Assembly (NCBI GenBank): GCA_963678705.1
Contig: OY783216.1
Coordinates: 6,758,001 to 6,822,000, forward strand
Reading direction: 5' to 3'
Length of the DNA stretch: 64,000 nt
Source: Panorpa germanica
Taxonomy: Eukaryota > Arthropoda > Insecta > Mecoptera > Panorpidae
Both the position numbers and the translations under genes were made by a program. The notes below the pieces were generated by a model. The model ran no database searches and had not been told where the DNA came from. It saw only the letters and a program-made list of their open reading frames with translations. Position 1 is the first letter of the stretch; each line of letters starts with the position of its first letter. Of the stretch, positions 4,201 to 58,800 are shown one piece after another.

Positions 4201-6446
4201 GAGTATATATCGTATATCTAAAAGAAAAATTGTGATCCCATATTCTAAAAATATTGGTGGAAAATAATACGATAAATTTACCAACCTATCTTCATGTAAA
4301 ATATTTTTTAAAGTGGTCTTTACATTATCTCTGGCAACAGCACTGTCCGCATAAACTAACACGTTAGGAGGTTTTGTCGTACTCATATTACTGTTATTAC
4401 CTCGTGTAGGCCGTCCTGCTATATCTTTTTTAAATGATACTTTTTTAGGGGAATTATCTTTAACACTATTTTTCTTTTCGCATAAACTGTGTTCTAAACT
4501 GCCTTTTCTTTCTATATTATTGATCTTTTCCTCTCCATTTGATATATTTGATGGAATTGTTTTATTTAAATTTAAAATAAGTGGTTCCTTTTCCGAGTTT
4601 ATTACAATTTCTTCAGATTTTGGTGATTCAGCTTGAATATCATCAACTTGTATACATTCAGTTTTATGTTCGCTTATGTTATTGATTAATTTTTCGTTTT
4701 CAGATTTTTCTATCTCACTGTTAGAAATAGACAATTCATTTGATATCGCTGAATTTTTATCTTCTTGTTCGGACAAATTTTCGATAACCAAATCATCGAC
4801 AACTAGGTTTTCTGATGCCTTATTGCTTAATTCTTTTAAATTATCAATATGGAAATTCCACTGTGTTGAAGATATATCAGGAATTGTAGTTCCGGTTGGT
4901 ATATATTGTAACGTTGGAGCTTCATTTAACATAAAAGGTGAACCTTCAACCATAACAGCTGAAATAATTCGTACATATTTAATTATATATGCACATATTG
5001 AGTAAATATATATTATCATATATTAAAAGGCTCACTTTGTATTCTTAGCAATTCCATTCCCCCTCGTAAAGCCACATTGCCAATCATAAACTGTTGCGTA
5101 AGTTCTGTTAGCTGCTGCAGAGTACTGTCCAATACTAGCCCCAGCATGTTATCGACCCTCCATGCCACAACAGATCCATATCGGTGTAACTAAATATTTA
5201 TTAATATTAAACATTCTATTTTTATACCTATTTAGTATTCGATAGAACAGGATTTAAGGCACACCTAAATTAAATTTAATAGAATACAATACAACGGAAA
5301 TGGCCTTTATTGTAATACATTGTATATAAGTTTATATAGCTAAAGGCTTTTTGTTAAAACCGGATAACCTATTAAAATTCATGTATAATGGACTGTTCTG
5401 ATTAGTGTGATTATTCTGCTAATAAATTTATTTTTAAACTTACATCAATCCGTTCTAAGTCCTCACTGCGCTTAAGACTTGCTTCAAGTAATAAGTGTAA
5501 GTAATGTCCCCCATCTGAACTGGCAGGGGATAAATCTTTCAACTTTCCTGTAACATCAGTACTTAGCGAACATTCTGCAACTGTCGGCGATGCTACACTT
5601 GCGAGAGATAAAAGTGAAGATCCCGCAGATGCAAGAAATGGGCTTCCTGGGGTAGCTATCCACGTGGAAAGTGATAAACGTTGAAGCGGTACTAAAGAAC
5701 ACATTCGCATCGGTCCATCATGCCACAAGACTTCACTAACATGGGCTTGAGAGCTATTGTTGCACATAGTTGAACTAGGGCCTAATGATTCTGTAATTTA
5801 TAAAATTAGTTTGTGTTTAATTTCAAAGAAAAATTAATCTTAACATCTACTTGAATTTAACATTTCCGTTAATACTAAAGAACCCCTGATCAATATGTGA
5901 CCCATATTACAGAAGATCGACAAATTGCGTATAAGTAAAATTAAAATTGTTTTTATGTAAAAAGATAACATTATTTACATTTTACGTGTATTATATAATA
6001 TACAATGGGTCATATTAAGGACACGGTAGAATAAACTAACGTAATTATAGAAAAAAAACTAAAGAAAAGTTTATCACGTCGCAGTATAACAATTCTTAAT
6101 ACTAGTAGTTAATCAATCAATACACACTAATGTTTATCAATTTTATAATGTTGTTTTAAAGTTTTGCATATTCTCAAGGTTGTGACATATATTTCCAAAA
6201 TTAGAGTTAAAAATAATCGATAAAGTATATACCTGTATCAACTGTTACATTTTCGGGTATTTTATACAACACAATACTGGAATTAGATTGTAAATAATGG
6301 CTCAATCTGGCTTTTAGAGAACCGAGCCTCCAAGACTGTAGCCATGTGGCAGCCATATAATACAAAGTTAATAACATTGTAACTGTTTTGATGACCCCTG
6401 GCCACCACCTAGCCCGCACACAACCACTTATCCACCGTGGATTTTG
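1260..6446 (-). CDS. HLCS: Biotin--protein ligase (holocarboxylase synthetase)
   Basis: The enzyme activates biotin with ATP and attaches it to the lysine of carboxylases such as acetyl-, pyruvate- and propionyl-CoA carboxylase. I read eleven exons, right to left: 6446-6233, 5790-5444, 5189-5036, 4958-4286, 4217-4019, 3947-3811, 3140-2786, 2454-2149, 2072-1905, 1835-1507, 1437-1260. All have GT-AG borders and join in frame to 1019 codons plus stop, about the size of metazoan HLCS. The catalytic domain is C-terminal. GMGRSANQWISPEG (about residues 796-809) is the biotinyl-AMP binding loop, KWPND lies near 858-862, and a GLNLDNSNPT segment follows. The long N-terminal half, with an acidic Ser/Glu-rich stretch at 4290-4950, is typical of animal forms. 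The first exon is open at its 5' side. The first in-frame ATG is at 6377, so either that is the start or a short upstream exon is missing. A LINE tail sits in the intron 3141-3810. Confidence 0.93.
3226..3791 (+). mobile_element. 5'-truncated non-LTR retrotransposon (LINE) tail
   Basis: The reading frame at 3243-3461 encodes RLGNEEKGNRYWESSEERK followed by CRVCGAEDETLEHIKFEC. This is the Cys-x2-Cys...His...Cys tail found after reverse transcriptase in many insect LINEs. The segment ends in a TAA-rich tail (about 3780-3791). It is bracketed by a 13-bp direct repeat AATAAAGAAACAA at 3213-3225 and 3792-3804, a target-site duplication. Only the last ~560 bp of an element is present, so it cannot move on its own. 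It lies antisense within an HLCS intron. A related copy lies at 11722-12351. Confidence 0.85.
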
Positions 6447-7879
6447 CTAAAATTATTTTAATTCACATTTTTAATTAGTTTCAAATTGTGAAGATAAATA
6501 TAAAATAGATAAGAGACATATTACATTTATTTTATTACATAATGATGATTATTTTCATTCAAAACTTTTATTTTTTTATTATATGTTTCATACTCTTGTC
6601 TTCATCTAAATGAACTGTTGTAATTTTGACATTACGTATATGCTAAGTGTAAAACTGTTTTATCGATAGCTTCGCCGAAGCTTTCTAGGAATGTCAATCA
6701 CAGATGGCACTAGTGTTATCAAAGTCTGTTTAATTAAATATTTAATTATCTATCTAACTAATTAAATATTTAACTTGAAAATATTTATGAAACTTTCGGA
6801 TTCAAGTAAATATTTTGCATAATGAAGTTGTCTTAAGTAAACTATTACGAATTTTTTTTATCAAATAGTTAATAATTAAAATGGAAACAATTACAGATCG
6901 AATACCTAAACTTCTTGATTTTAATTGAAATAATTAATTAATTTCATAATAGTTTAAATTTCAGCATTGTATTGAATTGAAAGACTAACTTTCGGAGAAT
7001 GTTGAGACATTAATTTGTTTCACATAAAGACATTTTATCATGACACCAAATTATATTTTAATGTTTATCAATATTCCCGTGTTGTGAAATAATATAAATT
7101 ATAATAAAATATTACGGGTGTTGTACATAACGTACGCGGTCCTCTTTGTGTTTACGACATCATGGACAATAGATTGTTGATAAGAAAAACGATTCAGATT
7201 TATAATATGTACTTTTATTACTTTCAACGCGGTGGTATATCATGATAAAGTGTACAAGATTCAGACAATCCCTTAAATAAATAATATAATTAATAAATGA
7301 ATTTATTGCTTTAAAATAAAAAATAACTTTGAATTTTTGTTATTGTTTTTCGCAATACTTCTTTTAACTCTTAGGAATATTACAGATAATTAATCATGTA
7401 TGCATTTGTCCTTAAGTATAAAAATAAATAACATTAGTAACATAAATGATACAGAATTGTGATATATTGTTGTTATTTATGAAGGTGTCATCAAATTGAT
7501 AACCATTGTTATACCATACTAGAAGGGGTTATCCAAGTTAGAAGTTCTTTGCTATTGGTCCATAAATCACTGAAAAAGGACAGAATGTTGAAATGACAGA
7601 GACAGGGAAGAATCTTTTGAACAAACAACAAATAATAATGGTATATTTACATGAATAAAATACAGAAAATTATATTAAGTTTAAAATAGTACTATTACTG
7701 CTAAATATATATATTCTTTGTGTTTAAAATTCAAAATTGTTCGGTTTGATAATCCCGCCAAGAATAAATCTGTTGTAGTTTATAAATCTGCCACTAGAGG
7801 CATTGAAGGGCCTAAGGTCACAGATTCAAAATAGTCGGAGATGTTTGTACATAATCAATTTATCTTAATAGCAACCAGT
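6447..7879. other. Intergenic, upstream of HLCS
   Basis: This AT-rich region should contain the HLCS promoter and any missing 5' exon. I see no convincing coding exon, RNA gene or repeat. Its right part continues into a tRNA-like relic at about 7880. Confidence 0.4.
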
Positions 7880-8301: not shown

Positions 8302-8534
8302 AATGGGCTTGTGTCTTATTATTCTTTAACTTGACTTAATTATTTCGACTACCAACAGCTACAAAACATTACCACAGCACTGACCTACTCAACAAATAAC
8401 TGACGCCAAAACTACAATTCAAATTTTTAATTGCTATATCTCCGTCAAATAGACACGCCAATACACATTTATTAACATCAATTTCAATCAACAATTGAAA
8501 AATCGGCCACTAAAAAATGAGAACACAAGCCCAT
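8302..8534 (-). mobile_element. MITE, AATGGGCTTGTGTCC family, copy 2 (internally deleted)
   Basis: Both ends are present: AATGGGCTTGTGTC at 8302, and the complement of the other end at 8520-8534. The interior jumps from the end sequence straight to the segment around TTATTCTTTAACTTGAC, leaving 233 bp instead of about 630. It is in reverse orientation relative to copy 1. This is a typical internal-deletion derivative. Confidence 0.85.
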
Positions 8535-9280
8535 GAAATTTGGCTTGAGAGCCTAGCTTATAAGAGGAGAAGTATGAACGACACGTGTTTGTGGGACTAT
8601 GCACTTCGGGTGTCTCTTGAACACACGTGAAGAGACTTACAATTCAAAGTTCGTCACGGGAGACGATTTGTAGCTTCGATTAAAAGAAATGATATATATA
8701 ATCGATTGGAACGGTTTTAGGAGCCTGTGATTGAGCAGGGATCTCACGCAAAATTTCTTTTATCTCGTCGAAATTGACTCCAAACCCCACCACCTTGCCC
8801 ATACATGTAATACGGCTCTGGCACCGGGTTTACATTATCCCAGCGTCTTACAAATCAGCTGACTACTTTATTTTTTCATAATCAAATCCGTCATTAAGTT
8901 GTCATGTAAACTAAACTTAATTAACATCGAACGTAAACAGTTCTAGATAAGTAGCAAATATATTTTTACAATGCAATTATTGTTACTGATATTTTAACCT
9001 TTAACCCCTAAATATATAAATATGGTATCAAGGAGGGGGTATACTTATTATTAATCACAATGCTTGGTTGGCAACAGAACAGATTTGTTTACAAATTTAC
9101 TGTTAATGGTTGCCGGTTCTGCTTGTGATTCAGCTACTTGTTGTAGTTAGTCAATATCTTTCACGTCAGTGAGTTCAGTTAAAGAGTTGTACCATTTTTT
9201 GAATTTAGCTATCAGCCTCTTATAAAGGCGATTATTTGTTTTTGCTTATCTTTTTATCACACTGTGTCAAACTGATTGCT
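8535..9280. other. Intergenic, probable LC3 promoter region
   Basis: The part at about 8540-8860 is less AT-rich than its surroundings but has no long reading frame I recognise. The part closest to 9281 should carry the transcription start and 5' UTR of the LC3-type Atg8 gene. Confidence 0.35.
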
Positions 9281-10853
9281 ATGGAAATGAGACGTCCTGC
9301 AGCTATACCGGTTATGGTTAGACATGATCTAAATTGTAACGTTCAAAGAAGTTTTAAAAGCAAAAAATCCTTTGGTAAGTTGCTATAAAATTATTTATGT
9401 TGTGCAATAATACATTGGTTGATACTTAACTGTAGTTTAACCAAAGAAAACCTGGATTACATCTTTCGTTAGATAACTGCGGTTGGTCTTTGACACCAAT
9501 GGATTTGAAAAACTCATTTTTTAGGTTAATATCATAACTGTAATTCATATATATATAAAAAATCAGTTCATTGTATCTTATTCTTTTCAGAAAGCCGAAA
9601 AGATGAAGTACACGCAATCAGAGTTAAATTCCCTACTAAAGTTCCAGTGAGTATTTAAACATATTAAACATTCCGTAAATATATTGTGCAAACATCATTA
9701 TCCTTATTATTTGTTTATGTAAAGTAGAGGTAACATTCCTTTGACAATCGGGCTGTGAATCATTTAAAATTTAACTTAAACTTTCCTTTGTTTATTACTT
9801 TTATAATATCAAAACTTTGTGTATTGTACCAGACAACTTGACGTTGCAAAGTAAGCGTTCACAAATCCGCAATACTTGCATCAACGGCATTAGATTTATC
9901 TGTAAAACATGGCTTGTGATAGGAGAGGGGAGACGTATTCATCGAGCACTATGGTAGATTTGTAGTGAATGGGTTATTCCTGATAAGGCATTTGCTTGCA
10001 ATAATGCATTCCATGTCAGGACCTAATCAGGTCCTTGTGTATTATCAACATTCCAAATGCATGTGACATCATAACCGTTAGTTATTATCTCTTTTATACA
10101 ACAGAGAGTACAAGAGATATATTCTTGACAGAACTCTGACAAGTTTACAGGTTACCAACCTTACAGCACATAAATCTCTGCTATATGGATTTATATATTA
10201 AAATATCAAATATTATTTACAGCTATTTCAAGGAACAATAAAATTTCATTATATTATGTCTGCCGTAACAGGGTTAAATAAAATAAAAACTTATTATTCT
10301 TTGACTTGACTATTTCAACTACCAACAGCTACAAAACATTACCACAGCACTGACCTACTCAACAAATAACTGACGTTTAAATACATTTCACGTCATACAA
10401 ATGGCCGACCATTTCTAGCGCTAAAACTACAATTCAAACTTTTAATTGCTATATCTCCGTCAACATTTAGATACTTAATAAAATAGACACACCAATACAC
10501 ATTTATTAACATCAATTTCAATCAATAATTGAAAAATCGACCACTAAAAAATGAGGACACAACGATAATTTTTCTATTTATTTCAGATTATCGTTGAACG
10601 AAACATTAGAGAAAGAAATCTTCCAGAAATGTCTAAAACAAAATTTTTGGTGCCACAAGAAGTAACAATGTCTCAATTTCTGACAATAATTCGAAATAGA
10701 ATGAATATTAAACAAAGTCATGCGATTTATCTTCTAATTAATAACAAAACGTTAATTAGCATGAGTCGAACAATAGCTGAAGTTTATCAAGACTACAGAG
10801 ACGAAGACGGGTTCCTTTACATGACTTATGCATCGAAGGAAGTCTACGGGTAG
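9281..10853 (+). CDS. LC3-type Atg8 ubiquitin-like protein
   Basis: Atg8/LC3 proteins are conjugated to phosphatidylethanolamine on autophagosome membranes and recruit cargo receptors. There are three exons, 9281-9374, 9591-9646 and 10587-10853, giving 138 residues in frame. Recognisable blocks are SFESRKDEVHAIR and KFPTKVPIIVER, then KTKFLVPQEVTMSQF and DEDGFLYMTYASKEVYG. The spacing and the AEVYQDYRDEDGFLYM region are closer to LC3 than to GABARAP. The protein ends exactly at the conserved C-terminal glycine, so no tail needs removal by Atg4. About 15-20 residues at the N-terminus (MEMRRPAAIPVMVRHD) are extra compared with LC3. A second ATG at 9287 is also possible. Intron 2 carries a truncated MITE that ends 25 bp before exon 3. 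Confidence 0.92.
10040..10561 (-). mobile_element. MITE, AATGGGCTTGTGTCC family, copy 3 (truncated)
   Basis: This copy matches copies 1 and 5 in reverse orientation, from about CATTCCAAATGCATGTGAC to GAGGACACAA. It breaks off before the last GCCCATT. Relative to copy 5 it holds about 70 bp of foreign sequence at about 10079-10150. The proximal (left) terminus is also missing. It lies in intron 2 of the LC3-type gene. Confidence 0.85.
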
Positions 10854-11721: not shown

Positions 11722-12351
11722 ATTATTTATTATATTAATTGTGTGCCTTTCGGTTTTACAATCTACATTATTATATTTCTTAATGCATTTCATATAAATT
11801 CAAAGTTAAAACTAAACTTAAACTATTCTAGACTATTACTACTTCGAATAGTACTTTCTATTTCTTCTTTTCTTGATTCCTCTCTCTTCATGTCCCCTAC
11901 TCCTTCTTTATTCACACCGTTTCCTGCTTCTCCCTCCTTATTGCCTGTATCTTCATCTATCACCTCTTGCCTTCCTTGTCTCCTCTCGACAAACCCTCTA
12001 TTATCTTTTCACTATCCTTCCTGCCTTCTCTCTTCGTTTTCACTTCTCCACTTATGTCTATTACAGGCATAAACGCTCTATCTTTACTATTTCCTCTTGA
12101 CTCTCTTACTTTACTATTTGTTCTTGACTGTCTTCCTTTACTATTTTATTATTGTCTCTATATCCGTCATCCACCTCTTGTCCTTATCTCCTTTCCGCAA
12201 ATCCTCTATTTTTCTGGACTGAAGTTTAACTGTTTCCTCGCTACTTCTTTCTTTCTCCTGCTTCCCTTCACTGCCTCTTTTAGTACTTCCTCTCTCTTCA
12301 TGTTCTTTATGCAACCCAGCTACGAGCTTATTTATTGTCCTGTTTTTTCTT
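11722..12351 (-). mobile_element. 5'-truncated LINE tail, second copy
   Basis: In reverse complement this resembles the element at 3226-3791. It contains the same AGTACTAAAAGAGGCAGTGA-like and AAGTTGAAGTATATGAAATG-like stretches and a TAA-rich tail, seen here as TTATTATTTATTA at its low-coordinate end. A 13-bp direct repeat TATACTTATAATT at 11709-11721 and 12352-12364 is the target-site duplication. Long frames on the plus strand here are antisense shadows of this element. It is more diverged than the other copy and carries a longer purine-rich stretch. Confidence 0.8.
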
Positions 12352-12364
12352 TATACTTATAATT

Positions 12365-17799: not shown

Positions 17800-19632
17800 G
17801 TAAGTATAATTTATTAAATATGTACTTGTATGATTTTTAATCAATAGAATATCTTGAAACGTAGTTCCACTGTTTGTATTTTACATAACGCAGGTTTAAG
17901 ATAAAAGACGTATTTTAGTTTCCTTAAATATTATTGTACCTCTCATTTTGATTTTTAACCTAACCTTTATGTTGCTAATTACCTTCATTTGTTGTAATTA
18001 CTAAGTAAGAATTATCAATTTAGATAATCTCTAATTTGTTTCACGGTAAATATTATTTACTTGTTCTGATGCAATACTACTAAACATAAAATGTAAATAC
18101 TACATAAGATTATTGTAAAATATGACAATAAATTAACAATTTAAATTTCATTTATATCCAGTAACAACGTTCACTATATAAGTTGGGAACCCTAAATGTA
18201 AACAACAATATTTTTTTATATAAAATATATATAACAGTTTTAGCGGAACCTAATGTCAAACATAAATAAATATTTATTAAGAATACCTGCTAATCACAGT
18301 TATACATATACGTAAAGTTTACTTATTATAAAAATGTTTACCTTTTTTATATTCTTTTAGTTTAATGTGATTTAAGATTATATAACTATAAATATTTATA
18401 TGTTTTTGATGTTAATAAAGTTTTTTATGTAAAATTATACAATGTTACATATTAAATTAATATATTGCTAAAAGATTTTTAATCTCTTTTGAATCATGTA
18501 TAATGACTACGTAAGAGAATTATGTCTAACTTCCATAAATATTAAAGCGATACGTTAAGTATAAAAATATTATGTTAAATAATATATAAATATACCTTAA
18601 ATACATGTTGACTTTATTGCTAAATGCTAATTTATTGACGTGTCTTTTCACCTCTTGATCTCGCTGCTATCGACCTGTGTATTGTATTGGCGCAAAATAA
18701 GTATAATTGAAGCAGGATTTATTTTTACAACGTGCTCGGCACGTGTTTTTGTTTCATTAGAACCACATGCGCACTTGTTGCACATGTGCTATGTTTCGCC
18801 ACTGAGCAGAAGACTGTTTTCATGCATAGAAATACATATATCACATCTGAATCCTACCCTCTTCTTTTCTATTTCATAGAAGAGCCATCTCTTTTATACA
18901 ACAAATTGCACAAAAATGAATATATGATACTTACAGCAGAGCCGTGCAACCCATATGGTTTTATATCATAAATGTTGTGAACATAGAAAAATTTCTCTTT
19001 GTTTAATCAATAAATTTTTTGACGTCATACACAAGCGGGAAAACAGAGAGATTCAAATTTTAAATAGACCCATTACGGTTATCTCAGAGATAGCTTGAAG
19101 ACTGCAATCCTTTAAATAATCTAACATCAATGATTAGCAGAGCATTAATCATCCAACTATTTTTTCCGTAATCATACTCGTGTAATTATAGAATATATTA
19201 AAAGAAAATTACATATGTAATATGTTTAGATGGAATGTAATAAAATATCTTTGATGAAGATTAACAAAATCGAATTCAAATGTATTTATATTCCATATGA
19301 ATTGTTATTTTATATTTATTGTATGTACCATTTAAGTCGCGCAATTTTGCGGTTAATTACTTGTTTTTCTCGTTAATTTTGAATTCTGGGAAAGCACCAG
19401 ACTGAGCTGTAATTACAGTTAACGGAAGTAAGCTAGTATCACTACATCGATGCTTGTCAAACAGGTTTTTACTTGATTATAAACACACTGCCATACATAT
19501 ATATTGTATGCTTATATATAAGTATACTTATGGCACGGGTCCCCAAACTACGGTTTAGGGATCGTACCAATTCTATCCACTGAAAATTCATCTCAACAAC
19601 ACACACTATATTTATTTCTTTATTTTAACTTT
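17800..19632. other. AT-rich sequence, no gene supported
   Basis: No coding exon was recognised. Overlapping plus-strand frames at 18640-18971 have no family resemblance and lack supporting splice context. If the exon pair 17799/22083 is real, this is intron. Confidence 0.4.
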
Positions 19633-20264
19633 AATGGGCTTGTGTCCTCATTTTTTAGTGGTCGATTTTTCAATTGTTGATTAAAATTGATGTTAATAAA
19701 TGTGTATTGGCGTGTCTATTTTATTAAATATCTAAATGTTGACGGAGATATAGCAATTAAAAATTTGAATTATAGTTTTAGCGTTAGAAATGGTCGGCCA
19801 TATTTGTATGACGTGAAATGCATTTTAACGTCAGTTATTTGTTGAGTAGGTCAGTGTTCTGGTAATATTTTGTAGCTGTTGGTAGTCAAATAATCAAGTC
19901 AAGTCAAAGAATAATAAGTTTTTATTTTATTTAACACTGTTAAGGCAGACATAATATTGAAATTTTATTGTTCCTTGAAATAGCTGTAAATAATATTTGA
20001 TATTTTGATATATAAATACATATAGGAGAGATTTATGAGCTGTAAGGTTGGTAACCTTACACTAGGATTGTGATGTCACATGCACTTGGAATGTGTACAA
20101 CGTTGAAGCCCTTTAATAATTAAAGAGACAAAATGACTTTTTTAATTGTTAATATCTCTTAACATATAAAGAGTTATTAAAAAATAATTTGTGGCTCTAG
20201 TAACCCACTTTATCAATATATAGTACACTTTTATAGAAATTAAGACATAGGACACAAGCCCATT
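19633..20264 (+). mobile_element. MITE, AATGGGCTTGTGTCC family, copy 4 (full length)
   Basis: This copy is about 632 bp with both inverted ends intact, and is nearly collinear with copy 1. It contains the internal short palindrome GTAAGGTTGGTAACCTTAC near 20041-20059. It is noncoding. Confidence 0.9.
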
Positions 20265-22082
20265 ATATCCAGAAATATATTTTCTTTAAGAATAAATGTT
20301 GTACAGACTACAGCCTGCAGGTTGAGGACCCCAGGATGCGATTATTACATTTTTGTAATGGTTCCCATTCAAATATAAATATAGTCAACCTTCGAAATAA
20401 TTGATACAATACATCCCAATAATTATTATGATTTATTACTAATTTCGAAGGTAAAATATTTACAAGTTTAATTTTCTTGTCCATTGTTTTTAAATTTTTA
20501 AATAAATGGTTGAAAAGCCTTTATGAATAAGGACTTTTCTTTATACTACTAAAGCAGAGTACGCCCAAAGTGTGCATAATTTTAGTGAATGTTACTAGAA
20601 ACCAAACAGATGCACCACAAAATATTTTTTTGTATATTTTGAAACTTTTAAAATTTAAAAATTATTTTTCTTTTTCAATGTTTTAAAAATGGTTTAATTC
20701 AGAAATTTCTGGCGCAAACGGCAAATTGCTTCATAATTGCCTCGACGAAATAAATTGTATCTAGTCACAATTGTATATAAATTGCACCTAGTCTTTATGA
20801 AAATTTAAATAGTAGTACTGAAAATATCAGTAAAAATTAAAATCTTCAAAGATTCTATTACGATTTTTTTTTTTTTCACGAAACATAGATGTTATGTTAC
20901 ATTTATGTAATATTTTACTTGAGCAAAACCTAATACTCTTTATTCTAAAAGAGTCTTACTTTATAATTTTATATATGGTTGAAGTTACGAGAGTTCGGCG
21001 GTGACTCATATTTTAAACAAGTCGTGGGGTATAAACTGCCGATATAACTAAAAAGCACTGACTCACTTATTTTTCTATAATGTATATAGAAACGAATAAG
21101 ACAAAATTCATTATCGTATTATAAATTAATACCGCTCTTATAACCTCTTTTAAGTATAAGTCACCGCCGATCTGTCGTGATTTTGACTATATATTCTAAA
21201 AGTCTTTAATCCTTAAAAGGAACATAGTAAGATTTTATAAGTCGTAAAAAAAGTGTTCGCAAAAGGGTGGATTTATTTCAAAAACTTTGCATGTCAAGTA
21301 AAAAGTTACGTAACTTGTTATGTTAGATAAACCTTAAATATATGTAACTATGTTTGGCGGATGTATTGTAAATTTTACCCTAACGATCGCATTTGTATAA
21401 CTTAAACGATATCTTTCAATATTTGAAGACTCATAAATTTCTTTTTAATCAGTTTAATGAATGTTAAATTTTTCCATTTGAACAACGGGCCGGTGCATAA
21501 TATAAATACTGATATCACAACTACATATACGTAGGGGGCGCTGCGCTTGTCTGAACAAACAACTGCTGCGGAAATGACCTTTTGACATGCATTATAGATA
21601 TTGTTAAAAAAAAACATGTTATAAGGTGATCATTTCAATCACGTGATCATTTTTTATTGTAGTCTTATGAGGTTTAAAATATATTTACATAATTCTTAAT
21701 TGTTCAAAATATTTTGTATTTAAAGTATACTATAAAAGCCACCTGCATCGAAAATTTTATAGTCATTTAAATAATCTACAATAATAAATATATTATGTTA
21801 GTTTCTGAGACATGCAGACTTTTACTTCGCGTATGCAGTCTTACTTCTAATTTAATTAATAATGGATATTTGGTCACTAACATATGCAATTTGATGGTGC
21901 CTCATATGTACGGGCATATGACATCGCTGCTTGAAATAGTTTGATAATAAATTTGATAAATGTTTGATGTTAAATAAACTGGATTGTAAAAACCAACGTC
22001 TCCCATAACTTAATCGATTATTATAACTCTTCTATTTACCGCTAATATCAGAAATTTTTACAATCTTATTTTTTGTTTTCAG
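20265..22082. other. AT-rich sequence, nothing recognised
   Basis: No gene or named repeat was seen. It ends at a strong polypyrimidine-AG acceptor (TTTTTTGTTTTCAG) ahead of the repeat-protein gene. Confidence 0.4.
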
Positions 22083-30979: not shown

Positions 30980-31410
30980 TCTTACTTCTCGAGGATTGAA
31001 GAAAATCTTATTGTTGATAAAGTTAAAAATTCAACATTTTTATCAATTTTAACAAGAGAACCTTCTTACATCACGAGGAATGAAAAAAATCTGATGTTTG
31101 TTGTAATTAAAAATTCAACATTTTTATCAATTTTAACAAGAGTATAACCTTCTTTCATCTCGAGGAATGAAGAAAATATAATTTTTGATAAAGTTAAAAA
31201 TTCAACATTTTCATCAATTTTAACAATAGTATAACCTTCTTACATCTCGAGGAATGAAGTAAATTTGATTTTAGTTAAAATTATAAATTCAACATTTTTA
31301 TCAATTTTAACAAGAGTATAACCTTCTTACATCTCGAGGAATGAAGAAAATCTGATTTTTGTTAAAATTAAAAATTCAACATTTTTATCAATTTTAACAA
31401 GAGTATATGT
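30980..31410 (+). repeat. Tandem array, 84-87 bp unit, about five copies
   Basis: CTCGAGGAATGAAGAAAAT-type unit starts fall at 30988, 31072, 31159, 31246 and 31333, giving spacings of 84, 87, 87 and 87. Each unit continues with AAAAATTCAACATTTTTATC and AATTTTAACAAGAGTATAAC. The repeated core reappears inverted and isolated at 32219, 34196 and 35510 as GAAGNNTATAATCTTGTTAAAA-like sequence, linking this array to the larger block to its right. Confidence 0.9.
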
Positions 31411-32454
31411 TGTGTCATTCAATTATTTCCGTTATTGTACATTTCCTGTATTACATATCATAAAAGTAGTACATTCTCTACTTTGACCAATCCCAATGTA
31501 ATTTTTAGAACATGGACCATATTTGAATCTTGGTTTAATACAGATAAACATTTTAATGTTTATGAGCCAACAGTATTTTATCTTTAATGTTATTGTAGTA
31601 AATGAATAATACGAGTACATACAAAATTGTAATAAATTAATTGTTATAAATATATTTTCCATATTATATATGTATATTATGTATTAGTATAAGTATAACA
31701 CCAAGTAGTTGTTATTGAAAGTAAAAATAAATAAAACTTCCTGGTAAACATAGTTATGTAGCATTAATGTAAAATTTACCGTCAGATGTGTATGCTTACT
31801 TGAATTTTATGTAAATGTTACATTTTTGTTTACTAGTTTGTTATTGATATACAATCTATCTTAGTATTTATACAGATTAGTTCAAAGGTAAGATCATTAC
31901 GTCAATTTCAAGTATCAATAACTACATTCTTTTGTTAGCCTCTCATAAAACTTATATTACTATCTCCAACATGTATTTTGAAATCTTTTGTGACGATCTG
32001 TATAAACTACTACATCATATTTTAAATTTAATATGTATCAAAATGCTGTTCAAATTACAAATGGTACAAAAATTATATGTAAAAATGTACACATGTATTA
32101 TATATATTATGTTTATCAGCAAATAAATAAAAATGAGTAACTTAACATTTGTCTTTTCTTTAAATGTAAACCCATGTATTTTACATTTCAGCATAAATAT
32201 TTTTTTGTCAATTCCCTTGATGAAAGAAGGTTATACTCTTGTTAAAAATGATGAAAAGGTTTACTTTTAGACTTTAAAAAATCATAAATTTTCTGTTATT
32301 TTCTTGATAAAACAAGACTATGTATCCTATATTACAATGTTCCAACTTGATGTAAACTTTGCTTGTAAGTAATGTTGCCGCTCTGTCAGGCGCAATGATG
32401 TATACATTTTATCAAGTTCATGGTCATTTCTTTTCTAATTTATTTTTTCATTCT
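31411..32454. other. AT-rich spacer between satellite arrays
   Basis: No supported gene; the small frames here are low-complexity. At 32215-32330 lies one isolated copy of the unit type described for 30980-31410, in inverted orientation. Confidence 0.4.
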
Positions 32455-33445
32455 TTAGAAGTTTTTGATGCAGTTATGTTCCTTATGTTCTAAAATAAGG
32501 GACCGTTTTATTACATTTTAAATATCTCCGCGATTATGGCTTTTATACGACCTTTTTTAAATTCATGGAATTTTTTTTCTAAAATTTTTTTTTTGATTTC
32601 TTGAAATTTTTTGATGCAGTTATGTTCGTTAGGCTTTAAATTAAAGAACTGCTTCATTACATTTTAATTATCTCCGCGATTATGGCTTTTATATGACCTT
32701 TTTTAAATTCATGGACTTTTTTTTTCTAAATTTTTTTTGGATTTCTTGAATTTTCATGATGCAGTTATGTTCGTTAGGCTTTAAATTAAAGAACCGCTTT
32801 ATTACATTTTAATTATCTCCGCGATTATGGCTTTTATACGACCTTTTTTAAATTCATGGACTTTTTCTTTCTAAAATTTTTTTTGGATTTCTTGAATTTT
32901 TTTGATGCAGTTATGTTCGTTAGGCTTTAACTTAAAGAACCGCTTTATTACATTTTAATTATCTCCGCGATTATGGCTTTTATGCGACCTTTTTTAAATT
33001 CATGGACTTTTTTTTTCTAAAATTTTTTTAGGATTTCTTGAATTTTTTTGATGCAGTTATATTCGCTACGCTTTAAATTAAAAAACTGCTTGATTACATT
33101 TTAAATATCTACGCCATTCTGGCTTTTACGCGACCTTCTTTAAATTCATGGACTTTTTTTTTCTAAATTTTTTTTTGGATTTCTTGAAATTTTTTGATGC
33201 AGTTATGTTCGCTAGGCTTTAAATTAAAAAACTGCTTGATTACATTTTAAATATCTACGCCATTCTGGTTTTTACGCAACCTTTTTTAAATTCATGGACT
33301 TTTTTTTTCTAAAATTTTTTTTGGATTTCTTCAAATTTTTTGATGCAGTTATGTTCGCTACGCTTTAAATTAAAAAACTGCTTCATTACATTTTAAATAA
33401 CTAAGCTTTTCTGACTTTTAAGCGACCTTTTTTAAATTCATGGAC
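32455..33445 (+). repeat. Satellite array, 146-bp unit, left arm
   Basis: The marker GATGCAGTTATGTTC begins at 32467, 32613, 32758, 32904, 33050, 33196 and 33342, so the period is 145-146 bp over seven units. The unit also contains ATTACATTTTAATTATCTCC, GCGATTATGGCTTTTA and AAATTCATGGACTTTTTTT. Units at 33050-33445 differ slightly from the outer ones. The array is repeated in inverted order at 34276-35345. Confidence 0.95.
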
Positions 33446-33490
33446 CTTTTTTCGTAAAACTAAAATGTTTATATTTTTTAAAATTGATTT

Positions 33491-34064
33491 ATGTTTTCTA
33501 ACGTAATTTTTTATGCTGATTCCAAAATTGAAAACCATTTTCCATTATCTCTTATAGTTTTCGAGTAATCTGCGTGTAAAGTTTTCGACTATTTTTTTAC
33601 TTTAATATGGTCATATCTCGTAAACCAAAAGACTTACATAAAAATGAATTCCAGATTTGAAATCAGCATTCAAAACTACATTAAAAACCATTAAAAAACC
33701 AACGAATTTTTTTTTTCAATTTTTATGAAAAGTAAGAAGACTATACTCTTCTTACTTTTCTCAAAAAACATTTTTTTTATTTTGGCACATGATACATGTT
33801 TTCTAACGTAGTTTTTTATGCTGATTCCAAAATTGAAAATCATTTTCCATTATCTCTTATAGTTTTCGAGTAATCTGCGTGTAAAGTTTTCGACTATTTT
33901 TTTACTTTAATATGGTCATATCTCGTAAACCAAAAGACTTACATAAAAATGAATTCCAGATTTGAAATCAGCATTCAAAACTACATTAAAAACCATTAAA
34001 AAACCAACGAATTTTTTTTTCAATTTTTATGAAAAGTAAGAAGACTATACTCTTCTTACTTTTC
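33491..34064 (+). repeat. Two direct copies (about 270 bp, period 305) between the satellite arms
   Basis: The copies at 33491-33760 and 33796-34064 are nearly identical, both starting ATGTTTTCTAACGTA. They share CATATCTCGTAAACCAAAAG and end in a short palindrome AAAAGTAAGAAG...CTTCTTACTTTT. Unlike the flanking arms they are in direct orientation. Confidence 0.93.
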
Positions 34065-34275
34065 ATAAAAATTGAAGAAAAAAATAATTAATTTTTATAA
34101 CGGTTTTTAATATAAAATTGAACACTGATTTCAAATATGTTATTAATTTTTAAATAAGTATTTTAGTTTATGATATATCAATATATTAAATCTCCATATA
34201 GAAAGAAGACTATAATCTTGTTAAAAATGATGAAAAGGTTCACTTTTATGATTTTAAGAGCAATGCAATTTTTTG

Positions 34276-35345
34276 AGTATCTACGTAGATATTTAAAATC
34301 TAATGATGCAGTTTTTTATTTTAGAGCATAACAAACATAACTGCATCAAAAAATTTTAAGGAATCCAAAAAAAATTTTAGAAAAAAAAAGTCCATGAATT
34401 TAAAAAAGGTCGCATAAAAACCAAAATCGCGTGGATATTTAAAATGTAATGATGCAGTTCTTTAATTTAAAACCTAACGAACATAACTGCACCAAAAAAA
34501 TTCAAGAAATCCAAAAAAAAATTTAGAAAAAAAAAGTCCATGAATTTAAAAAAGGTCGTATAAAAGCCATAATCGCGGAGATAATTAAAATGTAATAAAG
34601 CGGTTCTTTAATTTAAAGCGTAACGAACATAACTGCATCAAAAAATTTCAAGAAATCCAAAAAAAATTTTTAGAAAAAAAAGTCCATGAATTTAAAAAAG
34701 GTCGTATAAAAGCCATAATCGCGGAGATAATTAAAACGTAATGAAGCGGTTCTTTAATTTAAAGCCTAACGAACATAACTGCATCAAAAAATTTCAAGAA
34801 ATCCAAAAAAAATTTTTAGAAAAAAAAGTCCATGAATTTAAAAAAGGTCGCATAAAAGCCAGAATCGCGGAGATAATTAAAATGTAATGAAGCAGTTCTT
34901 TAATTTAAAGCCTAACGAACATAACTGCATCAAAAAATTTCAAGAAATCCAAAAAAAATTTTTAGAAAAAAAAGTCCATGAATTTAAAAAAGGTCGCATA
35001 AAAGCCAGAATCGCAGAGATAATTCAAATGTAATGAAGCAGTTCTTTAATTTAAAGCCTAACGAACATAACTGCATCAAAAAATTTCAAGGAATCCAAAA
35101 AAAAATTTAGAAAAAAAAGTCCATGAATTTAAAAAAGGTCGCATAAAAGCCAGAATCGCAGAGATAATTAAAATGTAATGAAGCAGTTCTTTAATTTAAA
35201 GCCTAACGAACATAACTGCATCAAAAAATTTCAAGAAATCAAAAAAAAATGTCCATGAATTAAAAAAAAATCGCATAAAAGTCAGAATCGCGTAGATATT
35301 GGAAATTTACTTAAACAGTTTATCAATTTAAAGTGTAGCGGATAA
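34276..35345 (-). repeat. Satellite array, 146-bp unit, right (inverted) arm
   Basis: The complement marker CTGCATC begins at 34341, 34487, 34633, 34779, 34925, 35071 and 35216, again with a 145-146 bp period. The innermost pair (33342/34347) and the outermost pair (32467/35222) share the same centre of symmetry at 33844.5. The arms therefore match unit for unit with no net length difference. Beyond 35222 the unit degenerates. Confidence 0.95.
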
Positions 35346-36061
35346 AGATTAATTAAAGAATTAAACACATTTGAAATATTAATTATTTAAAAAGGAAATA
35401 CATAACTCACACTCGTTGTCTTGCGACGGGCGGAACAGCTAGTCTGATTAAAAGTGATGTTCACTTTTAGACTGTAAAAAATCATAAATTTTCTGTTATT
35501 TTTTCAACGGAAGAAGACTATAATCTTGTTAAAAGTGATCAAAAGGTTCCACTTTAGAGTTTAAAGAATCACAAATTTATTATTTAACATTAGTATTTGT
35601 TTTAAGATAAATATAATTAAAATAAAAGAAGTAAATTTCGATTTAATATTTTTATTCTCATAAATATTTTTACATTTTATTTGTCATTAAATATTTACAA
35701 TGTCATATATTTAATAATTAAAACAAAAAAAGTAATAATTAGAATATATAAAATTTGTTTGTTTATGGATAAACTTTGAATAACTTTAATTGATGTGAGT
35801 TTGGTTGCCGATATATGAGGCGCGGTATTTATCTGCCATCTGTCGGACAACTCTTGAAATATTTATTTGTTATACTATCTTACAATAGATGGCGCCAGTG
35901 AATAATTTTTATTGGTGTGATTTTAGTTGCCTAGACCTTAGGCGCTTCTTGTTGATTATATAAAGTACTTTTTATATTCTATTTAAAATTAAAATTCATT
36001 TAATTAATTAAATAATTCTTCTGGGCAAAATATAAAAAGACGAGTACTATTATATTTTTAG
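35346..36061. other. Right flank of satellite block
   Basis: This contains isolated copies of the 85-bp type unit at about 35455-35590. A stretch at 35835-36061 loosely parallels 30100-30296. No gene was seen. Confidence 0.4.
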
Positions 36062-52033: not shown

Positions 52034-52672
52034 AATGGGCTTGTGTCCTATGTCTTAATTTCTACAAAAGTGTACTATATATTGATAAAGTGGGTTACTA
52101 GAACCTCAAATGTTCAATTATTTTTTAATAACTCCTTATATGTTAGGAGATATTAACAATTAAAAAAGTTATTTTGTCTCTTTAATTATTAAAGGGATTC
52201 AGCGTTGTACACATTCCAAATGCATGTGACATCACAATCCTTGTGTAAGGTTACCAACCTTACAGCTCATAAATCTCTGCTATATGTATTTATATATCAA
52301 AATATCAAATATTATTTACAGCTATTTCAAGGAATAATAAAATTTAAATATTATGTCTGCCTTAGCAGGGTTAAATAAAGTAAAAACTTATTATTCTTTG
52401 ACTTGACTGGATTGTTTGAGTACTAACAGCTACAAAACATTACCACAACACTGACCTACTCAACAAATAACTGACGTTAAAATGCATTTCACGTCATACA
52501 AATATGACCGACCATTTCTAGCGCTAAAACTACAATTCAAACTTTTAATTGCTATATCTCCGTCAATATTTAGATATTTAATAAAATAGACACGCCAATA
52601 CACATTTATTAACATCAATTTCAACCAACAATTGAAAAATCGACCACTAAAAAATAAGGACACAAGCCCATT
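52034..52672 (-). mobile_element. MITE, AATGGGCTTGTGTCC family, copy 5 (full length)
   Basis: About 639 bp, reversed relative to copy 1, with both ends present. It occupies most of the space between beta-galactosidase copies 1 and 2 and ends about 215 bp before the copy 2 start codon. It may therefore overlap that gene's promoter. Confidence 0.92.
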
Positions 52673-52886
52673 AGACAAAAGTTGTTGAAGATACTTCAAA
52701 TATCAAAGTAGGTGTTTGTTACTGTGTTTTATTTACAGACGTTCATGTAATTTATACAGATTATTATATAAAAGTCAGTTATTGTATTTTCTTTTATTAA
52801 AATTATTAGTTTTGAAATATTACTTCTGTTTTCTTATATCATTTTTATATTGAAATCGTTGTGCATTTTTATATAAAACATACACC

Positions 52887-55800
52887 ATGGTTGTAAATCT
52901 TAAACATACTTTCTTAATTCTCTACGTCATTACCATCATTCTGCTTGTTGCAACATGCATCGCTCAGGTAGGAACATAAAGAAAATATATTAATTTTGAA
53001 GTTTGAAGATTGAACTATTGTGTTTTATCTTAAATTAAAGCAAAGCTGATATTTTAAGGTATGGCGTGCTCTGTACAAAAATGACAACTTCACTATTTCC
53101 AGTGGATACTACAGAAGCTTTTCTGCCCATTATAAAGAATGTAATAAAAACATCATGACGGTTAAGTTGATATTTTTCTTAATTATTATTATGAAATAAG
53201 AATTACAATGGGCTTGTGTCCTCATTTTTTAGTGGTCGATTTTTTAATTGTTGATTGAAATTGATGTTAATAAATGTGTATTGGCGTGTCTATTTTATTA
53301 AATATCTAAATATTGACGGAGATATAGCAATTAAAAATTTGAATTGTAGTTTCAGCGCTAAAAATGGTCGGCCATATTTGTATGACGTGAAATGCATTTT
53401 AACGTCAGTTATTTGTTAAGTAGGCCAGTACTGTGGTAATGTTCTGTAGCTGTTGGTAGTCGAATAATCAAGTCAAATCAAAGAATAATAAGTTTTTTAT
53501 TTTATTTAACCCAGCTAAGGCAGACATAATATTGAAATTTTATTGTTCCTTGAAATAGCTGTAAATAATATTTGATATTTTGATATATAAATACATATAG
53601 CAGAGATTTATGAGCTGTAAGGTTGGTAACCTTACACAATGATTGTGGTGTCACATGCACTTGGAATGTGTACAACGTTGAATCCCTTTATTAATTAAAG
53701 AGACAAAATGACTTTTTTAATTGTTAATATCTCTTAACATATAAAGAGTTATTAAAAAATAATTGAACAATTTCAGGTTCTAGTAACCTACTTTATAAAT
53801 ATATAGTACACTTTCAAAGACATAGGACACAAGCCCATTGGGTTGTGAATTCATTTTTTAGAGATCAATGTTTCATTCTTTATTGGTGTATATTCATGGA
53901 TAAATATCATAAAAAACCGGTGGAACGATACGTAAAGTTTTATGTTTACGCTATATAATATCTACATTTTGTAGTAGCAAATAGCTAATGTGAATAAGCC
54001 AGAATGATGAGATAAATATTCAAATATATTTTGTGTCATTTTTCAGCATTCTATAGAGGTTGATTTTAAGGAAAAGCAATTTTTGATGGACGGAGAACCG
54101 TTTAGGTTCATTGCAGGTTCTCTTCACTATTTTCGGGTTCCTCGTCAGTACTGGAGAGACCGGTTACGGAAGCTAAGAGCAGCTGGTCTTAACGCAGTGT
54201 CTACGTTTGTATTATTGCTAGACCACACACTTTTCTTAATATAATAGATACTAGATAATTGAATTGCAGATGCGTCGAATGGAGTTTTCATAATCCTTTT
54301 CCGGAGCAGTTTAATTGGGAAGGAGATGCGGATCTGAAATATTTTTTAAAAACTGCCGCTGAGGAAGATCTTTTTGTTTTGCTTCAAGTTGGACCATATA
54401 TAAATGCGGATAGAGATTTTGTAATTAATATATTCTACATATGTCTACTGACATACACTCACATTGTTTAAAAATTAGCAGACCTTACTATGGTGTTGCA
54501 TGATATCATTGCATGTGTTTGACAGTTAACTTTTCAATGAAGAATTGTTTTATTCTAATATCTATTGCTAAGTCTAAAAAATAGTCGAAAAGATGCTTTA
54601 GCGCCTGGTTCTTAGGCTAAAACTACAATACAAAAAGAATACCGCTAAATAATAATATAGCCCAGTCATTATAGTAAGTTCACCTCGGAATTCGAGATAT
54701 CCAGCTGTAAGTCTGTAAATACTTGTATATTGACACCCTAAAGTTGACTCAAAACCTACATATGGTAGGGTGTATAAACCATATGTAGGTTTTGAGACAA
54801 CTTTAGGGTGTCAATATACAAGTATTTACAGATTTACAGCTGGGTATCTCGAATTCCGAGATTCTTACCTAATTTAAGCTTAAATGACTGGGCCATAATA
54901 ATTTCATTTCATTTCAAATCAGCAGTTTGCATGTACAGTTATATATTTCAATGAATTATAAAATTACGGATTTATTTACGCGGTATTCTTTTTCTTAACC
55001 TAAGAAAGTGTGTAATTGTATGAATGGCAAAGTGAAAATATTCGACCTCAAACGATGATTAGTAGAAACGCTTATAACTTTAATTACGTGTTTAGGGTGG
55101 TCTTCCCTTTTGGCTCTTAACGCTCTATGATGGAAATGAAAACAATAAAATTAATGTACGATCTACTGATAAAAGTATGTGATTTGTTTTTTGAATAGGG
55201 GTTGTGAATCATAACTTAATTTCTATAAAATAGTAATATATGGATAAAGTTGACTATCAGGACCTCAAGTGTTCAAATATTTATTAGATTTTGTAAGTTA
55301 ATTAAATCCAGGCAACTCATAGGACTTGTCTTTCTCAGTTGGAGACTAATTTCAGAATGACTTATTTTATTAATTACTCTATCCCTATAAATTACCTTTT
55401 TTTAGTTTCATCACACGAATTTAATTGTTGAACTGTCAATTTAAATTTACTTAAATCGATAATTAACCGAAAAACCCCGATAGTGAGATATTTTCATAGA
55501 AGAAACCGATTTATCGAGATGGTAATAAAAAACCTAGGTATTGGTGTGCATAAAAGATGCATAATCAAATGTTAGATATTACTTACAGCTATCTAGAGCA
55601 ACACGTATAAATTTGATAATATAAATATGATATACATGAATAAATGAAATCGATTAGTTATTGTTTTACAGACTTTATTATTAACCTAGTGACGTCAAAA
55701 ACATGATTAAAAATTATATGGTAAAAGCCAAATTTTAAAAAGTTATATCTCCGTCACATTTTGGATATTACCCTCCAAAAAATGAGTTCACAACCCAATT

Positions 55801-58800
55801 ATATTTATATTAATTTTTATTTAAACTATGATTTTTTTGTAGGGTATATGCATGAAATCAATATTTGGTACGCAAATCTAATGCCCAAGATATTACCACA
55901 TTTTTTCGGAAGCGGCGGTCCTGTTATATTACTGCAAGTATGTAATATATTATTCGTTTAATAGGAAGTAATTTTGGGTTTGCAGTGTAAGAAATAGGGC
56001 GGCCTTAGGGGGTGGCAAGCAGGGCAACCACCCGGGGCCTCGCTCTTGTCTTATAAATATTATTTTTTTCGCGGCGAAAATATTACCAAATGTACCTAAC
56101 TATGTTTTCTACCTGTGGCTTATACGTGCTTCGAAAAATTTTACTCAAATTGTAATCAGGCTATTCGACATTATTATACTACCAGAGTGTGCAACCACCC
56201 TTATGGTCAGTGTGTATATATACAGGGTGTCCCAAAATTCAACGATAAGCCGGCACCAGAAGATGGTCCTGCTCATGACTACACAAGAAAAGAAGAAAAA
56301 AAAAAATTATCTCATTTTGTTTAGGAATTAGAAAAAAAATAATTTTTTTTTCGAAAATTGAAACACCTTAAGATGTTTTTAACTACCATGACCACAATTT
56401 TTCAAATATTTCTGATTTTTTTTTTGTATCGGCAACCTAAATAGCACTGCTATCCATCACAACCATTAAAACTCCCAGAATGCTAGTAGTTTTGACACAA
56501 AAATCAATCGAAATTACTTTTTTCCCAAAAATTTTTAAAGATTTTTACTTTCAGTCCACTTTAACTCATCGTGGTGTAAAAAAAAAGTATGAACACTACT
56601 ATGGCAAGTTTTTTTAAAAATTGGCGCAACTCTTCAGGATTCCAAAATGGTATAATACTCCAGGAAAACTGGCAATAAAAAAAAATTATGCATACTATTT
56701 CTAAAAAAGAACCATATTTCATAAATTGTTGTTGTTGATAGTTATCATTTTTACAATACCCAAAAGAGGTTTTTTATAGTTGAATGAATTAAAACAAATG
56801 GTACAAACAATTTTTAATTCATTTTATAAATTTATTACATTATTTACATTACAGTAAATGTTCAAATTGTTTCCCACTGGCATTAATACAGCCACAACAC
56901 CGCCTTAAAAAAGATTGTTTTTTTTGGACGTTATTACCATTGGATAATATCCACAACGGGTCGCATTTTGCCGTGTTATGCTGCAAAAACTCAGGGAAGA
57001 TCCCCAATTCTTAGGTAAAATTCTATAGTCGGATGAAACAACCTGCAAGATAGATGGTTATTTAAATCTTCATAACCTACATAGCTGGAGCAATGAAAAT
57101 CCTGCGCCTAATGAGACTAGACAAATCCCAATATCAATTTAAGATTAACCTATGGACGGGATATTAAATGGAAAAGTGCTTGGGCTCTTTGAGGTACAAG
57201 GATATTAGATGGCAATAATTATTTGAACTTTTTACAAAATGATTTGTCAGAATTATTAGAAGACGTGCCCATAAGTGATTTACAAAATGATGGTTGCTCA
57301 GCTCACTATGCTCGCCCTGTGCGAGAATACCTAAACGAAGAGTATCCGGGGCGTAGGATTGGACGATTTGGTCCAATTCACCCGATCTAAACCTCTGGAC
57401 TTCTTCTATTAGGGTTGTCTTAAAGAAACAGTTTATTCAAAACCCGTAGCAACATTGGACGAGCTTCGACAAAAAAAATACTCAGGTTGCACATCATATG
57501 AAAGGTAAACGATATGATATGAAAAAGATTTCGTTTAAGGCGATGTCGTGCCTGTATTTATGCTGGTGGCAAACATTTTGAACATTTACTATAATGTAAA
57601 TCAACTATAAAATTTATAAAATAAATGAAAAATTATTGGTATCATTTGTTTCAATTCATTCAACAATAAAACACCTCTTTTGGGTATTGTAAAAATGATA
57701 ACTATCAACAACAACAATTTATGAAATATGGTTTTTTTTTAGAAACAGTATGCATAATTTTTTTTTATTGCTAGTTTTCCTGGAGTATTATACCATTTTG
57801 GAATCCTGAAGAGTTGCGCCAATTTTTAAAAAAACTTGCCATAGTAGTGTTCATACTTTTTTTTTACACCACGATGAGTTAAAGTGGACTGAAAGTAAAA
57901 ATCTTAAAAAAATTTAGGGAAAAAAGTAATTTCGATTGATTTTTGTGTAAAAACTACTAGCATTCTGGGAGTTTTAATGGTTGTGATGGATAGCAGTGCT
58001 ATTTAGGTTGCCGATACAAAAAAAAAATCAGAAATATTTAAAAAATTGTGGTCATGGTAGTTAAAAAGATCTTAAGATGTTTCAATTTTCGAAAAAACAA
58101 TTATTTTTTTTCTAATTCCTAAACAAAATGAGATAAATTTTTTTTTTCTTCTTTTCTTGTGTAGTCATGAGCAGGACCATCTTCTGGTGCCGGCTTATCG
58201 TTGAATTTTGGGACACCCTGTATAATGAATAAATTAAAGGTCGAGAACGATTATGGTAGCTACCTATGCGACAATACCTTCAAGAAATTATTACGAAACG
58301 CAATCAAGAAATATTCCACATGGAACGCTGTACTCTATACGGCGGATGCGCCATCAAATCTTCATCTGAACTGTGGGAAGATTCGAGAAGTTCTTAGCAC
58401 GGTTAAATTTGGAAGCAGTACGTTATATTACATCTATTCCTCTTGCTCCATGGTTCCTGTGAACCATGTCTTAATTTCTGCAAAACTAATTAGCATAAGA
58501 TATGGTTCATAATCGAATTTCAATTGGTAACAGTTAAAATTGTATATTTTTAATTTATACACAGATGTAGATGAAAATAAGGCATTTAAATCTTTACGAA
58601 AAATAAAACCAAATACTCCATTAGTAAATTCGGAGTTTTACACTGGTTCGGCCATGTATTGGAATGGATCTTTTATACAGATACCTACTGAAAATATAAC
58701 CAGAGCGTTGCGCCTCCTTCTGAATGCATCGGCAAGTGTCAACATTCATATGTTTTCGGGAGGGACGAATTTTGGATTTACAAGTGGTAAGTATATGTCA

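Follow-up and report, generated by a model that had tools for sequence, protein, structure and literature searches.

In a stretch of 64,000 nucleotides from Panorpa germanica (Mecoptera; GenBank assembly GCA_963678705.1, contig OY783216.1, positions 6,758,001 to 6,822,000 of the forward strand; hereafter the window, whose coordinates are used throughout), seven 146-bp repeat units face seven more around a central spacer, and the question raised by this locus is whether such a block is a rearranged satellite, a source of double-stranded RNA or part of a mobile element. The initial annotation, made from the letters alone, proposed a local inverted duplication or gene conversion between the arms and compared the block with hairpin small-RNA loci and the unit length with that of nucleosome core DNA; the transposon nature of the arrays was overlooked. 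It is very probable that the arrays form the interior of a non-autonomous Helitron, a rolling-circle transposon, which occupies 32325–35442.

Tandem Repeats Finder places the left array at 32417–33452 (146-bp period, 7.1 copies, 91% matches) and the right array at 34287–35250 (146-bp period, 6.6 copies, 94% matches). The right array is the reverse complement of the left, 32440–33403 aligning with 35249–34286 at 91.1% identity over 966 columns with 4 gap columns, and this mirrored arrangement is far above chance. Units start with GATGCAG at 32467, 32613, 32758, 32904, 33050, 33196, and 33342 in the left arm and, on the opposite strand, at 35222, 35077, 34931, 34785, 34639, 34493, and 34347 in the right arm; the outermost and innermost pairs of starts have the common centre 33844.5, and there is no net indel between the arms because each contains one 145-bp unit, the second in the left arm and the outermost in the right. 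The seven-against-seven arrangement, the 145–146-bp period, the centre, and the loop of about 830 bases (a spacer measured here at 823 bp) are thus as first described, and the outward edges of both arrays decay into degenerate part-units. The correspondence unit for unit, which had also been claimed, holds as far as equal arms and a shared centre go; after a shift by one unit, however, 32408–33259 aligns with 35136–34284 just as well (91.1% over 855 columns; 87.6% in the other direction), so that the phrase mainly means that both arms now hold seven units.

Evidence for a Helitron comes in part from the boundaries. Copies of the block were sought in the assembly to which the window belongs (249 contigs, 464 Mb), and 21 were read, namely the window copy and 20 others (L009–L028). 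Many of them have in common, beyond the arrays, a sharply defined end, ...CTCGTTGTCTTGCGACGGGCCGAACAGCTAG, past which the flanks diverge. A 3' end in CTAG or TTAG was located in 13 of the 21, with T as the next base in 13 of 13; together with 20 further loci selected by their 3' end, the terminus is followed by T in 33 of 33 cases and is CTAG except in L020, L055, and L056, which have TTAG. The 5' start, TCCTATATTA(C/T)AATGTTCCAAC, was located in eight of the 21 copies; the base before its TC is A in the window copy, L020, L023, L026, L027, and L028, A or C in L010, which has two candidate starts, and G in L009, where the start abuts another Helitron end. Both ends occur in a single orientation in seven of the 21, and three more 5'-like matches, lying outside the element or wrongly oriented (L020 at 5899, L024, L025), were set aside. 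These features resemble those of canonical Helitrons such as Helraiser and Helibat, for which 5'-TC, a 3' hairpin about 11–12 nt upstream of CTAG, insertion at an A|T site, and the lack of a target duplication are described as hallmarks (PMC4778049). The 3' hairpin of the present family has a 7-bp stem; over the 21 ends that are distinct among 32, 95.2% of cells are paired, compared with 31–67% in slid controls, and part of the hairpin is lost in L022. When nine copies were scanned for ends with looser settings, the 5' matches were numerous and at chance level apart from the start of L026, which was already known, and a single 3' end, that of L022, was credible. No long reading frame was found within the element.

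Whether arrays and ends belong together was judged from the 3' side. When the 80-bp 3' terminal domain alone was the query, 38 of the best 40 matches scored, out of 211 candidates, ran to the last base. Twenty of these 40 loci, excluding copies already read and some others, made up the end-selected sample; reversed 146-bp units lie upstream in 20 of 20, the end is CTAG in 18 and TTAG in two, T follows in all 20, and the distance from the last unit to the end is 96 bp at 13 of the loci and 87–209 bp at all of them. Since all 20 carry arrays, the 3' end and the arrays are one mobile unit today. It has also to be considered that a foldback element or an inverted satellite block landed in an unrelated Helitron and that the arrays are passengers; the core and arms could formerly have been a separate element, and the 5' domains vary among copies, but loci found by the 3' end alone hold arrays without exception and at a short distance, so that this explanation is improbable for the present family, although it may describe the origin of the family.

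The Helitron reading is further strengthened by the dispersal of the block. With the whole block as query, at least 388 matches were found in the genome (36 scored of 1,870 first-look candidates), at least four of which, besides the window, are near full-length at 92–94% and lie on the same contig; the core alone gave at least 131 matches (40 scored of 1,044 candidates) at no fewer than 40 separate places. Each of the 21 copies has its units pointing inward in both arms, plus and then minus, with exactly one switch, although L009–L028 were found with a both-arm query that possibly favours mirrored copies, a bias that the end-selected sample removes on the 3' side only. The number of full units per arm varies from 4 to 24 (for instance, 24/8, 4/11, and 14/10) and is equal in three copies, the window (7/7), L009 (9/9), and L023 (8/8); the exact 7/7 symmetry noted at first is therefore no rule. 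Because the arrangement recurs in 21 of 21 copies that nevertheless differ in unit number, an assembly artefact is unlikely. In L013, the flanks (1–1802 and 5881–7668) are inverted copies of each other, 1.8 kb long and 97% identical, which places the element inside a larger palindrome. A Helitron start follows a CTAG or TTAG end directly in L009 (at about 1863) and after three bases in L020 (5895–5899), which suggests tandem insertion or read-through.

The copy number also bears on the view that the block is a hairpin small interfering RNA (siRNA) locus selected for double-stranded RNA. An RNA of the element is predicted to fold with 897 arm-to-arm base pairs, the perfect duplex runs between the arms reaching up to 65 bp, but any long inverted repeat would fold likewise, and dozens of copies favour a mobile repeat over a single functional locus; selection of this kind is quite improbable, and it is not exclusive of the Helitron reading.

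The element interrupts a repeat of an 87-bp family, which occurs at 30980–31407, 32222–32321, 34201–34257, and 35445–35590 and not only serves as the insertion target but also contributes a portion of the Helitron core. The window insertion has a twin in L023 (C13:9.19 Mb), as both host flanks of L023 match those of the window directly (left 97.9% over 1,000 bp; right 98.4% over 430 bp). The joined flanks of L023 align with intact 87-bp units at 85% over 126 columns with 0 gaps and with the junction exactly at A|T, so that the insertion occurred without target duplication or loss; this comparison was possible for one insertion only, that of the window and L023. The segment of about 4.5 kb that contains the Helitron (31407–35950 in the window; C13:9195141–9200028 in L023) occurs at two places on a single contig, separated by 2.4 Mb and in opposite orientation, with flanks 98% alike; inverted duplicates of this kind can mark chromosomal inversion breakpoints.

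Galileo and FB are foldback elements with long facing tandem-repeat arms, and the silhouette of the window element invites comparison with them. A foldback-type DNA transposon with terminal inverted repeats (TIRs) made of tandem units would move by a cut-and-paste transposase and leave target duplications (8–10 bp in Tetris). Tetris likewise has long facing tandem-repeat arms around a middle domain and a variable unit number (PMC4079207), and the present family is dispersed. However, the inverted repeats stop short of the element ends, and the outer ends are not clear mutual inverted repeats: the 5' and 3' terminal domains are without clear inverted similarity, the strong flank-to-flank similarities being direct and the inverted ones short and weak. 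A search for target-site duplications found a single 7-bp direct repeat beside weakly inverted ends and away from the shared termini (30 shuffles: mean 0.13, maximum 3), and no duplication at the termini themselves. Given TC and CTAG termini of rolling-circle type, an insertion point at A|T, and an empty site that aligns without gaps, a foldback transposon is very improbable here.

A local inverted duplication of a satellite array, that is, a macro-dyad without any transposon, is close to one of the origins raised in the initial annotation, where grouping of partner units was named as its sign. Satellite macro-dyads have been described in Tribolium pericentromeres (PMC13081366), and the window block shows symmetry at the level of the arrays as well as some states common to the inner units of both arms. 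The strict mirror test of arm units gave P = 0.030 with all columns and P = 0.113 and 0.080 with trimmed columns (exact, 5,040 permutations), and without the innermost one or two pairs it gave P = 0.17 and 0.68; the unit tree has zero branches above the support threshold, the arms are interleaved, and units L3 and L4 stand beside unit R5. Partner-unit pairing in the window copy is thus weak and edge-driven, and the grouping expected from local duplication did not emerge. The same arrangement at 21 of 21 places, the sharp shared ends, and the empty site contradict a macro-dyad, which can be given almost no weight. The resemblance of the outermost right part-unit to inner left units also prompted the idea that one array had been divided by a subsequent inversion, which was dropped because the dispersed copies show the same orientation switch.

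Exchange between arms is supported at the level of the family, to which extent the proposal of gene conversion stands. When each of 392 units was matched with the nearest unit beyond its own arm, that neighbour belonged to the opposite arm of the copy concerned in 105.5 cases, compared with 9.6 expected (arm-pair shuffle, P ≤ 0.00005); the own opposite arm ranks anywhere from 1st to 21st among copies, a wide spread, and between copies hardly any signal is specific to the arm (0.056 percentage points over 15 copies of known orientation, P = 0.021). Measured against the ends of the Helitron, the asymmetric core points in one direction in the window and L026 and in the opposite direction in L022, L023, L024, and L025, where the orientation of L024 was set by flank similarity alone. 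In the twin pair of the window and L023, the flanks are direct and the core is reversed at 96.7%; the simplest cause of such a flip would be recombination between the inverted arms.

The core itself was compared through the 190-bp halves adjoining the arms in 13 copies. In L009, L010, and L014, the 3' core halves are identical and the 5' halves 98.9–100% alike, while the halves within each copy differ by 5–6%, which means that the palindrome predates the spread of these copies and was copied whole. Homogenisation of the core halves was rejected, its signal being slight (P = 0.031) and mostly contradicted by this comparison of halves. An 87-bp-type piece flanks the palindromic core on both sides in 13 of the 21 copies, on one side in six, and on neither in two (L020 and L021), and a motif of about 24 bp is common to the 87-bp repeat and the core palindrome (34200–34223 vs. 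33731–33754, 87.5%).

Several observations weigh against a Helitron that is copied whole and whose arms exchange. A recognisable 3' end is missing in eight of the 21 copies (L011, L012, L013, L016, L018, L021, L024, and L026) and a recognisable 5' end in 13, so that the element boundaries rest on subsets. Letter shuffles equal the pairing of the 3' hairpin in 500 of 500 cases, and compensatory change is absent; the hairpin has no covariation support because the changes are one-sided only. The joined flanks of the window itself show gaps of 1 base and 6 bases against the 87-bp unit, the clean empty site coming from the twin L023 only. No autonomous element with the exact ends of the palindromic family was found, the two elements with a Helitron_like_N domain that were read (below) having other 3' ends. 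L019 and L027 depart from L009, L010, and L014 in that the 3' core half is nearest to the 5' half of the same copy. In the window copy, each arm has closer relatives than the other arm, which ranks 8th of 21; more generally, the similarity of arms within copies may be due in part to descent of the copies rather than to exchange, but an arm-specific signal between copies is almost absent.

Machinery that could mobilise the element is present in the same genome. The Helitron_like_N domain was found in the assembly (best 150 of 893 candidates scored), many of the matches lying in 1,119-aa open frames and three in longer frames of 1,486–1,489 aa; examples of the domain are at C2:14115500–14121500 (L035) and C8:5305200–5311200 (L036). 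Two such elements are 99.98% identical over 5,613 bp, which suggests recent activity, and share a 3' end of the type CAGCTAG|T, their 5' ends lying beyond the stretches read. In the proposed mechanism, the RepHel protein of autonomous Helitrons would mobilise the element in trans, and the whole palindrome would be copied via a single-stranded circle, in which it would fold into a hairpin; between jumps, the arms would pair, leading to homogenisation and an occasional flip of the core, and unequal exchange would account for gain and loss of units. In our view, Helitron copying together with satellite expansion produced the arms mainly as a side effect. In a read-through model, the 3' hairpin of Helitrons serves as a terminator (PMC4778049), so that a role of the palindrome in termination is conceivable; a role in termination or silencing is possible. 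Only tentatively can the element be regarded as a "foldback Helitron", in which the kilobase palindromic body would be retained as useful, for instance because it folds in the single-stranded circle into a hairpin that is protected or that terminates strongly, and in which the arms would recombine and flip the core between jumps.

Elements with some of these features are known. DINE-TR1 of Drosophila reportedly carries an array of satellite-like units in a dispersed non-autonomous rolling-circle element. Helentron and HINE elements have subterminal inverted repeats, insert between T and T, and have no CTRR; the window element has a CTAG end and an A|T site and so does not belong with them, although subterminal repeats were not separately looked for. 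The oyster element Cg_HINE is likewise a genome-dispersed non-autonomous rolling-circle element with a satellite-like array; its repeats are all in one orientation without exception (PMC7492417), whereas here two convergent arrays surround a core. It has also been remarked that oyster Helitron arrays are "oriented in different directions", with no detail in the portion available (PMC12628747), and mixed array orientation had therefore, as far as this remark goes, already been noticed. Helitrons are described as being without TIRs (PMC6544945), and these are absent here as well; unlike canonical Helitrons, however, the window element consists for about two thirds of inverted tandem-unit arrays. 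Helitron2 and the non-canonical Helitrons of Fusarium are rolling-circle elements that possess inverted repeats, but these are short asymmetric terminal repeats of about 12–16 bp with other end letters (PMC5148889), whereas the present termini are canonical and the repeats of about 1 kb are internal. The macro-dyads of Tribolium share inverted satellite subarrays and a conserved switch point with the window block, but they are long, putatively pericentromeric, and described without transposon ends, whereas the copies here are short and dispersed; that paper states that satellite macro-dyads are documented only in Tribolium (PMC13081366). A Helitron with a kilobase palindromic body was not found among the papers listed in the literature searched, whose coverage excludes most subscription papers. 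Tandem repeats inside Helitrons are already known, and the window element very probably belongs to an established transposon type, its palindromic build being what is unusual.

Table 1. Features of the very probable Helitron and its insertion site in the window.
Feature	Position	Strand	Basis
Host repeat unit of 87-bp type on the left side of the insertion	32222..32324	+	Repeat similarity; empty-site alignments
Non-autonomous Helitron (very probable), 3,118 bp, 5'-TCC...CTAG-3', between host A (32324) and T (35443)	32325..35442	+	Termini common to other copies; empty site in the 87-bp host repeat
5' terminal domain, starting TCCTATATTACAATGTTCCAAC	32325..32407	+	Similar start (≤4 edits) after A in L020, L023, L026, L027, L028
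5' arm: degenerate part-unit 32408–32466, then seven 146-bp units, the last truncated	32408..33460	+	Repeat finding; self-alignment; unit starts
Core (spacer), 823 bp, asymmetric in the window copy	33461..34283		Self-alignment
X1 and X2, two direct copies of a sequence of about 305 bp, 93% alike (33446–33767 / 33755–34071)	33462..34071	+	Self-alignment
Imperfect palindrome, about 285 bp, 80%, centre near 34048 (GTAAGAAG..CTTCTTAC); conserved centre of the family	33906..34190		Self-alignment; genome search
Segment beside the 3' arm, first ~57 bp (34201–34257) resembling the 87-bp repeat	34201..34283	+	Repeat similarity
3' arm: seven reversed 146-bp units (innermost partial) and outer degenerate unit 35223–35362	34284..35362	-	Repeat finding; self-alignment; unit starts
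3' terminal domain	35363..35442	+	Genome matches, best 40 of 211 candidates; 38/40 run to CTAG
3' hairpin CTCGTTG-TCTTG-CGACGGG, 12 nt before the end	35412..35430	+	Stem pairing in 21 distinct ends (see text)
CTAG terminus, then host T	35439..35442	+	Termini of array copies and end-selected loci
Host repeat units of 87-bp type on the right side of the insertion	35443..35590	+	Repeat similarity; empty-site alignments

The block lies between two minus-strand genes and is probably intergenic. On one side, the last exon of a gene (37391–37149) reads YLDLDL, which we take to be a Gab-type adaptor motif; on the other side, a gene running downward from 29507, presumably that of a RecQ4-like helicase, gave one Helicase_C match below the cut-off. 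The window returned no match in Rfam at the gathering threshold or in a tRNA scan, ten of its reading frames gave only two weak Pfam matches, below the curated cut-offs, and each of two viral-contig pattern scans gave zero matches. Further repeats are present in the window. A repeat of about 640 bp with inverted ends AATGGGCTTGTGTCCT, probably a miniature inverted-repeat transposable element, occurs in four full copies (312–936, 19632–20266, 52034–52673, and 53207–53839) and at least two partial ones (10149–10562 and 8315–8541) within the 64 kb and is present also in L010 and L024; one inverted pair, 56219–56909 and 57534–58224, has repeats of 691 bp that are 95% identical, lie 624 bp apart, and start TATACAGGGTGTCCCA, and another, 3441–3588 and 12205–12352, has repeats of 148 bp that are 95% identical.

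For the biology of the family, these results have several consequences. If the element moved via a single-stranded intermediate, a hairpin of nearly a kilobase was tolerated or used. The family lends itself to testing, in a natural setting, how hairpins terminate rolling-circle transposition. It is also a route by which ready-made inverted satellite blocks are scattered, blocks that would otherwise be ascribed to inversion or duplication in place, and the flipped core in twin insertions suggests that recombination between arms is a source of instability near genes.

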